Assembly (NCBI GenBank): GCA_018333725.1
Contig: JAGXSM010000213.1
Location: 1 to 33,584 of the forward strand
From: Melioribacter sp.
Lineage (GTDB): Bacteria > Bacteroidota > Ignavibacteria > Ignavibacteriales > Melioribacteraceae
DNA length: 33,584 bases
Direction of reading: 5' to 3'
Both the position numbers and the translations under genes were made by a program. The notes under the pieces are model-generated. The model did not search any database. It was given only the letters and a program-made list of their open reading frames with translations, and was not told where the DNA came from. This document shows, in pieces, positions 22,860-25,248 of the stretch (within the stretch, counting starts at the first letter, position 1; each line of letters opens with the position of its first letter).

Positions 22860-22976
22860 AATTAATTGCTTTGTTCTGTTTGAAAATTATCATTATGTTT
22901 AAGACGGTAGGCAATCGAAAAGTTTTTTAGTTGTCTCGTTTTATTTAATTAGTATAATTTCATAGGAGTCTATTCA

Positions 22977-23189
22977 ATGGCAGAACGTGAAAGCGGAACC
23001 GTAAAATGGTTTAATGCTGCAAAAGGTTTCGGTTTTATCGAACGCACGCAAGGCGGAGACATATTTGTTCACTTTTCTTCTATCAAATCCGAAGGTTTTA
23101 AAAGTCTTGAAAAAGGCCAGAAGGTTGAGTTCACTGTTGGTGACGGACCAAAGGGACCGCAAGCTCAAGACGTCACCTTAGTGAAATAA
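22977..23189 (+). CDS. Cold-shock domain protein (CspA family)
   Basis: A 70-residue single-domain nucleic-acid chaperone. [17 protein letters not shown] carries RNP1 and DIFVHFSSI carries RNP2; the length is typical. AGGAG precedes the ATG with 8-nt spacing. The 117-bp upstream region is enough for a structured 5' leader, common in csp genes, but I see no defined motif there. A terminator follows. Confidence 0.96.
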
Positions 23190-23211
23190 TAAAGTATTAT
23201 TAACTACGTGC

Positions 23212-23240
23212 AAACCCCCGAATTATGTGGGTTTATTTTT
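23212..23240 (+). terminator. Terminator after the cold-shock gene
   Basis: AAACCC (from 23212) pairs with GGGTTT (23229-23234), followed by ATTTTTT. The stem is short but well placed 22 bp after the stop codon. Confidence 0.65.
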
Positions 23241-23330
23241 TCTATTACTATGTCTTCTAAATTCTTACTTAATTTTGAACTTAGAATTCAATCATATTGT
23301 TATGACATTTATAAAAAATAAATTTTAACA

Positions 23331-23426
23331 GTGAAGACCAGATACACATATTATCTCATACTGATTTTCGGTAAAACTGAAAAACATTCCCTTTCTTTAA
23401 GCAGCCGCTGTTGTTGTTGCTTCTAA
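23331..23426 (+). CDS. Candidate cysteine-responsive leader peptide ending SSRCCCCF
   Basis: A 31-codon frame opens at GTG 23331 and ends TGT TGT TGT TGC TTC TAA at 23409-23426, giving ...LSLSSRCCCCF. Four consecutive Cys codons at the end of a short ORF directly upstream of the cysteine-biosynthesis genes cysE and cysK is the signature of a cysteine-sensing leader peptide; polycysteine attenuator uORFs are documented in mycobacteria. The exact start is uncertain: no clear Shine-Dalgarno precedes the GTG, and CTG or ATT codons inside the frame could serve. A leaderless start is also possible. A hairpin and a T7 tract overlap or follow the Cys codons (see 23399-23433). Confidence 0.6.
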   Translation: MKTRYTYYLILIFGKTEKHSLSLSSRCCCCF

Positions 23427-23433
23427 TTTTTTT
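23399..23433 (+). promoter_or_regulatory. Possible attenuator hairpin and T tract overlapping the Cys codons
   Basis: AAGCAGC (23399-23405) can pair with GTTGCTT (23416-23422, one G-U pair), and seven T residues follow at 23427-23433. The 3' arm overlaps the last Cys codon, so a ribosome stalled at the Cys codons would prevent the hairpin. A second hairpin, TTTTCGGT-AAA-ACTGAAAA at 23365-23383, lies upstream in the same leader. The stem is short, so termination strength is doubtful. Confidence 0.4.
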
Positions 23434-23479
23434 ACTATCAAATTCATTTCAAATAAAATTTTTATCAGGATAAATTAAT

Positions 23480-24325
23480 ATGGAAACGAACAATAAGTTA
23501 GATTCATTCATAACCGAGTTGCAAAGTAAAAGAGAGCTGCATTCCTGCACAATCTCTCTAAAAAATAATACTGTTAACTTCATTAATAGTCAGATTAGTT
23601 TGCTTTTTCCGCACTTTGCAGAAAAAATAGATAACAAAAGCATTCCACAAGAAATCGATTCTATAAAGAATCAGTTAATAAAATTAATTAATTCACTAAA
23701 CGGATTGACTAAAATTGATGCTGAAAGTGTAACTCAGAATTACATCGAAAAATTGCCGGATATTCATAATAAATTATGGATGGATGCTAATGCAATTTAT
23801 GATGGCGATCCGGCTGCAGAAAGTATTGACGAGGTAATACTCGCATACCCCGGTTTTATGGCAATTCTGATTTACAGATTTGCGCACGAACTATATAAAC
23901 TTAGAGTCCCTATAATACCAAGAATAATGTCGGAACATGCTCATCAAATAACGGGTGTCGACATTCATCCTGGTGCAGTAATCGGTTCTCCGTTTTTTAT
24001 TGATCACGGGACGGGAATAGTAATTGGAGAAACAACTGTAATTGGCAATAATGTAAAAATATATCAGGGAGTAACTCTTGGCGCGCTAAGTGTTAAAAAA
24101 GAATTATCAAATGTAAAGAGGCACCCTACCATAGAAGATGATGTAATAATTTATGCGCAATCGGTTATTCTTGGAGGTAATACAGTCATCGGTAAAAACA
24201 GTGTAATAGGTGGCAACTCGTGGATTGTTCAAAGTATTTCTCCTAATTCGGTTGTGAATAATAAAAACGAAGTAAGAATCAAATCAAACAAAGATTTTGA
24301 AGAACCAATTAACTTTATTATTTGA
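23480..24325 (+). CDS. cysE: Serine O-acetyltransferase
   Basis: A 281-residue enzyme making O-acetylserine from serine and acetyl-CoA. The N-terminal helical region is followed by [20 protein letters not shown] and the left-handed beta-helix with hexapeptide repeats from about 160. Catalytic His candidates are in [12 protein letters not shown] and [11 protein letters not shown], and VTLGALSV is the acetyl-CoA-binding turn. It is the longer SAT form, close to the SAT/EpsC group. The next gene, cysK, begins 11 bp after the stop codon, so the two form a cysteine-synthase operon. The 290-bp upstream region holds the polycysteine leader. Confidence 0.95.
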
Positions 24326-24336
24326 AAGGATACGTT

Positions 24337-25248
24337 ATGAAAGCAAATAACATACTTGAAACTATCGGCAACACACCACATGTTAAAATAAACCGCATCT
24401 TTGGTAATAAACACGAAATATGGATTAAGCTCGAACGTGCAAATCCTGGGGCTAGTATTAAAGACCGGATTGCACTCGCAATGATAGAAGAAGCTGAAAA
24501 ACAGGGAATAATAAAACCCGATAGTGTAATTGTTGAACCAACTTCCGGAAACACCGGTATTGGCTTAGCAATGGTTGCGGCTGTTAAAGGTTATCAACTG
24601 ATCTTAGTAATGCCGGAATCAATGTCGGTTGAAAGAAGAAAAGTTATGGCTGCATACGGAGCTAAATTCGAATTAACACCCCGTGAATTAGGAATGAGAG
24701 GTGCTATTGAAAAAGCAAATGAAATTGCAGCCCAAAATCCAAAAGCCTGGATACCACAGCAATTTGAAAATAGGGCAAATGTAAATATTCACATTAGCAC
24801 TACGGCAAAAGAAATATTAAATGATTTTGCCGATGGAATTGATTATCTGATAACAGGTGTTGGAACGGGCGGACATATTACCGGCGTATCAAAAGTACTT
24901 AAAGAAAAATTTCCTCAGCTTAAAACTTTTGCGGTTGAACCTGAATTATCGCCAGTACTTTCCGGCGGCAAACCAAGTCCGCATCCTATCCAGGGAATTG
25001 GAGCTGGATTTATTCCTAAAATACTCGATGCTTCTGTTCTTGATGGGGTAATTACAGTATCAAAAGAAGATGCGTTCGAATTTGCACAACGTGCTGCAAA
25101 AGAAGAAGGAATTTTTATGGGAATATCTTCAGGTGCATCACTCGCGGCAGTATCAAAAAAGATAAAAGAGATTCCAGAAGGGAAAAAAATTCTTACTTTT
25201 AATTATGATACTGGAGAAAGATATTTATCTATAGAGGGTTTGTACTGA
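24337..25248 (+). CDS. cysK: Cysteine synthase (O-acetylserine sulfhydrylase)
   Basis: A protein of about 303 residues, a fold-type II PLP enzyme making cysteine from O-acetylserine and sulfide. Lys42 in GASIKDRIA binds [14 protein letters not shown] is the asparagine-loop substrate motif, [10 protein letters not shown] binds the PLP phosphate and GISSGAS is the late serine motif. The ATG at 24337 is chosen because GAAAGGA lies 6 bp upstream; an upstream in-frame TTG at 24322 would overlap cysE. It forms an operon with cysE, the other half of the cysteine-synthase complex. A strong stem-loop ends the unit. Confidence 0.95.

Follow-up and report, generated by a model that had tools for sequence, protein, structure and literature searches.

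The cysE-cysK locus and its leader frame

The window analysed here, a 33,584-nt stretch of Melioribacter sp. DNA, carries on its forward strand a serine O-acetyltransferase gene, cysE (23480-24325), followed by cysK, which encodes cysteine synthase A (24337-25248, ATG at 24337). The initial annotation had assigned cysteine-synthesis functions to these genes, and NCBIfam models back both assignments: cysE lies above the cut-off of NF041874 and matches TIGR01172 with E=3e-50, though below the cut-off of that model, and cysK lies above the cut-off of TIGR01139. Upstream of cysE, on the same strand, is the leader frame MKTRYTYYLILIFGKTEKHSLSLSSRCCCCF (23331-23426), read from the sequence and backed by family conservation, with a GTG start codon (23331-23333) and 31 codons. 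It contains four consecutive Cys codons, TGT TGT TGT TGC (23409-23411, 23412-23414, 23415-23417 and 23418-23420), which are the proposed ribosome stall site, and closes with a Phe codon (23421-23423) and TAA (23424-23426), giving a peptide that ends in RCCCCF. The Cys codons, the stop and the gap of 53 nt between TAA and the cysE ATG at 23480 are exactly where the initial annotation had put them. Directly 3' of the TAA is a T7 tract (23427-23433), with which a G-free, unstructured linker begins (23427-23462; 4 C, 0 G); a Shine-Dalgarno-like AGGA (23467-23470) stands 9 nt before the cysE ATG.

The gene upstream of the leader encodes a cold-shock protein. After it come a terminator-like hairpin and a T run (about 23212-23241), and the leader and cysE-cysK therefore look like a separate transcript. 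To judge from the sequence, this transcript probably arises from the predicted promoter TTGAAC-N17-TGTTAT (23275-23303, forward strand), with transcription expected to start near 23310, about 20 nt before the leader GTG. Among 40 family leaders, 21 have the motif KTGAAC upstream, as against a mean of 3.8 and a maximum of 10 in shuffles. The window also holds a weaker overlapping promoter candidate (23325-23354), whose use would take the GTG out of the transcript. NCBIfam has no peptide family model for the leader, and an Rfam search of the leader gave no match, only sub-threshold ones over the neighbouring csp gene. One of these, a cspA thermoregulator match at 22893-23240 (55 bits, cut-off 78), probably reflects the csp coding sequence.

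Conservation of the Cys codons

A frame that is never translated might contain a TGT/TGC run by coincidence. Four consecutive TGY codons are frequent in this genome (41 sites), and the leader GTG has no clear Shine-Dalgarno site. However, among the 30 of these 41 sites that were inspected, the leader alone lies outside a long open reading frame, the other 29 being in or opposite one, and when the 200-nt region upstream of cysE was shuffled 20,000 times with dinucleotides preserved, not a single CCCC frame arose. Conservation was assessed in 42 cysE upstream regions from Melioribacteraceae (Ignavibacteria), in which frames were sought within 200 nt. A short frame with C-C or C-x-C was present at 40 of the 42 loci, as against a mean of 1.9 and a maximum of 6 in shuffles and 5 on the reverse strand; a CCC frame was present at 23 (shuffles 0.0, reverse strand 0). 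Since the family sequences are related, these counts overstate independence and do not stand for independent events. A clear leader was absent at two loci, L010 and L131.

When the leaders of related cysE genes were compared, in the spirit of a check that the initial annotation had put forward, both the Cys run and its position proved to be conserved in the family. The leader occupies the same position before cysE, with about 50-60 nt from stop to start at most loci, and 37 of 39 leaders have 0-1 codons between the Cys codons and the stop. Within the genus, leaders ending in SICCCCF-stop and NCCCCCS-stop are found at the same place before cysE, and the same-genus counterparts at L003 and L008 also start with GTG. 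The locus has the general make-up of a ribosome-mediated amino-acid leader, namely a short frame, rich in codons for the amino acid that the pathway makes, immediately before a pathway gene. In 17 of 25 loci with a poly-Cys leader, the motif CTAAT lies at or just after the leader stop (window 23420-23428), sometimes outside the stop codon.

Two types of leader can be distinguished in the family: type A, with a poly-Cys run as in the window, and type B, which in most members ends in GY[FLY]xTC[ILMV]C-stop (L009, L011, L012, L017, L050, L132-L135, L137, L138 and L140). In type B, the entropy summed at codon positions 1, 2 and 3 is 3.4, 2.5 and 7.9, respectively; as variation concentrates at third positions, it is the peptide that is conserved; possibly it is an arrest peptide. 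By eye, some type B leaders appear to be leaderless. At L011 and L133, the palindrome TTGACAAAAAAGTCAA occupies the -35 region of the predicted promoter upstream of the leader, and possibly constitutes a putative operator of some regulator.

The family-wide retention of a Cys frame relative to shuffles and the reverse strand, the variable third codon positions of type B leaders and the recurrence of Cys-rich leaders on sulfate operons (see below) make coincidence scarcely credible. The initial annotation's argument that such a run is unlikely to precede cysteine genes by chance is thus borne out by the shuffles and by the family, and sequence comparison indicates that the leader frame is real and under selection.

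Cys-rich leaders on sulfate operons

Sulfate operons of the family, consisting of a DUF2061-like small gene (by eye) and then cysH-cysD-cysN, also have Cys-rich leaders, as does a sulfate-binding-protein operon in the relative G045; the gene names in these operons were read by eye from the sequence, cysD alone having been found by a family model. Taking the G045 set in, examples of these leaders are ...MSCLMYCCCCC-stop, ACACCC-stop, CICTPSMCCCC-stop and CMCLCCINC-stop. On some sulfate operons, a first leader (e.g. MKKVFLVDCCMCLTLRIRSVKEL-stop) precedes a strong intrinsic terminator, the 5' arm of which complements the leader end, with antiterminator complementarity z values of -7.4 (L206), -3.9 (L208), -3.1 (L218) and -1.9 (L216). 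After the terminator comes either another Cys leader, of the stop-proximal kind, or a SAM riboswitch, as in L216 and L218. The former arrangement is seen upstream of cysH at L206 (reverse strand) and L208, where Cys-rich leaders stand in tandem: a terminator and an antiterminator go with the first, and the second is stop-proximal and terminator-free. In the latter, the riboswitch (L216:360-474, 86.7 bits; L218:375-473, 79.1 bits) lies between the Cys-rich leader-terminator and the sulfate operon, an order that would place two sulfur sensors in series.

In the leaders of L207, L208 and L215-L218, the Cys codons are mixed with Met codons (CMC, MCCC, CCMCC), and such sulfate-operon leaders possibly sense both sulfur amino acids. 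The same scan gave no Cys-rich leader at the cysC-cysD-cysN loci L201-L204, which probably serve sulfation and not cysteine synthesis. In the genome to which the window belongs (87% complete), no sulfate-binding or cysD gene that might share the leader was found.

Terminator-type leaders and the hairpins of the window

Outside the family, a terminator lies within 130 nt upstream at 17 of 78 cysE loci, and 13 of these 17 terminators follow a Cys-rich frame, an arrangement familiar from textbook attenuators. Over 17 loci, including four of the sulfate leaders, antiterminator complementarity has a mean z of -2.1, a mean that keeps L086, L122 and L224, where the run was taken to end at a later Cys and the segment used is therefore probably too short. 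By inspection, the frame of a terminator-type leader often continues for several codons beyond the Cys run. None of twelve tested terminator-type loci matched Rfam. That relatives possess terminator-type cysteine attenuators is, on sequence grounds, well supported.

Could the window leader be a classical transcription attenuator of this kind, in which a hairpin over the Cys codons and the T7 tract form an intrinsic terminator that is blocked by a stalled ribosome? The two hairpins and the T tract reported in the initial annotation do exist. The upstream hairpin, TTTTCGGT-AAA-ACTGAAAA (23365-23383, forward strand; arms 23365-23372 and 23376-23383, from folding), is possibly a pause hairpin, and by eye L003 and L008 have a comparable T-rich/A-rich hairpin. 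The second (23399-23422, forward strand; stem 23399-23405/23416-23422, -9.4 kcal/mol) covers the last Cys codons. A similar hairpin in L008, and the terminator-type Cys leaders found before cysE in other Bacteroidota and on the family's own sulfate operons, would fit such a mechanism. However, the stem is weak, the T7 tract begins 4 nt after it, and a consensus terminator scan of the window did not call the hairpin and T tract at 23399-23433. Nor is the hairpin a family trait: it is missing from L003, in the same genus, and terminators were called at only four of the 42 family cysE loci. At two of the four, a Cys frame precedes the terminator, and in each case it is the Cys codons that form the hairpin. 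For the stretch from leader stop to cysE, RNAalifold found no well-supported conserved structure in the family, folding was not clearly below that of shuffles (mean z 0.15 for type A, -0.32 for type B), and no conserved alternative structure that could act as an antiterminator was found at family cysE loci. An intrinsic terminator at 23399-23433 was therefore rejected, being neither conserved nor called by the scan and lacking its hairpin in L003. The hairpin and T-tract attenuator implied by the initial annotation finds no support in this clade, and intrinsic termination is quite unlikely to be the output of the window leader.

Accessibility of the cysE start

A second type of output is translational attenuation, in which the cysE start would be buried in RNA structure and become free only when a ribosome is stalled at the Cys codons. 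The closest experimentally studied polycysteine leaders, those of mycobacteria, work in this way (PMC9031893, PMC13236596). In type A leaders, the leader end and the cysE start pair slightly better than shuffled sequences (mean z -0.48, SEM 0.2), most strongly in L041 (-3.8) and then in L043 and L007. Against this, the pairing in the window itself is worse than shuffled (z +1.2), the family has no conserved structure, and under a modelled stall the mean shift in accessibility at the cysE start is 0.01, no larger than with shuffled linkers, L033 alone being responsive. In the window the modelled change is -0.02, a weak test that uses predicted structures only. As the stall had no effect in this modelling of predicted structures, unmasking of the cysE start by a stalled ribosome was rejected as a candidate; as an account of the leader's output, translational attenuation is doubtful, if less so than intrinsic termination.

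A probable cysteine-sensing leader with a possible Rho-dependent output

The best overall explanation of the data is that 23331-23426 encodes a leader peptide whose translation monitors the supply of charged tRNA-Cys and so controls cysE-cysK (probability roughly 0.8). The cysteine leader-peptide idea of the initial annotation is strongly supported by the conservation of the Cys run and its position in the family, by the presence of such leaders on sulfate operons as well and by the terminator-type versions in other Bacteroidota. The sensor step, stalling of ribosomes on the Cys codons at cysteine starvation, is very probable on comparative grounds. With ample cysteine, ribosomes would translate through all four Cys codons, terminate at the neighbouring stop and be released; under shortage they would be held at these codons, at the very end of the frame, and expression of the genes downstream would rise.

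How the stall would be converted into expression is a separate matter. Relative to the leader stop, a C-rich, G-poor stretch reaches from about -60 to about +30, the Cys codons excepted. In the family linkers the C:G ratio is 297:91, with C exceeding G in 38 of 39, as against 273:216 and 23 of 42 for other genes of the family, and Rho is encoded (700 bits). The locus thus combines what a tna-type mechanism calls for, an encoded Rho and, next to the leader stop, an unstructured segment rich in C and poor in G. A stalled ribosome would shield this segment, of which the linker at 23427-23462 is a proposed part, from Rho, and a released ribosome would expose it, so that transcription would end before or in early cysE. 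Such tna-like Rho-dependent termination, postulated by analogy, is favoured because neither a terminator nor unmasking of the cysE start was found; I regard it as the leading output, at slightly less than even odds. The C-rich, G-poor linker may also have been selected merely to stay unstructured or free of false Shine-Dalgarno sites.

An unstructured linker and a fairly constant stop-to-start distance (about 50-60 nt at most loci) would equally suit translational coupling, in which ribosomes that finish the leader reinitiate at cysE across the linker, with the Cys run tuning the process. However, coupling would reduce cysE expression at cysteine shortage, the wrong direction for a biosynthetic gene, and relatives use attenuation; it is very unlikely. 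The order of preference for the output is therefore Rho, then start unmasking, then intrinsic termination and, last, coupling.

Comparison with known systems

Leader peptides with Cys runs are known in Actinobacteria (Seliverstov et al. 2005, PMC1262725), and Rho was proposed for the mycobacterial cys leaders on the same grounds as here (PMC1262725); translational attenuation was later reported for them (PMC13236596, PMC9031893). Polycysteine leaderless sORFs of mycobacteria were described by Canestrari et al. 2020, as cited in PMC9031893, PMC13236596 and PMC9094748. The window leader resembles these actinobacterial and mycobacterial leaders in being a short frame with a Cys run near its stop directly before cysteine genes, in the lack of a terminator and in the use of one kind of leader for several operons. 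It differs in belonging to another phylum and in showing no detectable peptide similarity beyond Cys. Where the sORFs are leaderless, its candidate promoter would give it a short 5' UTR, and unlike in the mycobacterial report, modelling of its family gives no support for start unmasking. In Rhodobacterales, the uORFC-8-2 motif before cysS includes a Cys-codon uORF proposed to control this cysteine-related gene (PMC8632094); it differs in that its two Cys codons are part of a structured element that includes an intrinsic terminator, and in that its target is cysteinyl-tRNA synthetase.

The terminator-type leaders of Bacteroidota and of sulfate operons share the sensor, a Cys-run peptide, and have the same or related target genes. 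In them, however, the Cys run is usually followed by extra codons and an antiterminator strand and then by a strong terminator, none of which the window leader has. TnaC, encoded by the E. coli tna leader, is an arrest peptide responding to excess tryptophan. The output proposed here is like that of tna with Rho, with a stall at the end of the leader frame, a C-rich segment beside the stop and no need for a hairpin; unlike TnaC, the window leader would respond to codon starvation through lack of cysteine. Because a defining feature of each was tested and not found, in structure tests that are weak, the window leader is classed neither as a classical attenuator nor as a mycobacterial-type sORF, and at the sensor step it would work like both.

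In the mainly open-access papers searched, no such leader is described for Bacteroidota or Ignavibacteria, weak evidence on which cysteine leader control appears new to these groups. A rather speculative proposal is a Melioribacteraceae cysteine 'ribulon' with one Cys-codon sensor and different outputs, a terminator on sulfate operons and Rho on cysE-cysK, in which one branch would have swapped poly-Cys for GY[FLY]xTC[ILMV]C-stop, possibly a cysteine-sensitive arrest peptide acting beyond codon starvation alone. The present analysis adds Ignavibacteria and other Bacteroidota, with several sulfur operons at once, to the range of cysteine-responsive leader peptides, beyond Actinobacteria and Alphaproteobacteria. 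As terminator-type and terminator-free forms of the same sensor occur side by side, one can now ask how output mechanisms switch and whether Rho is used.
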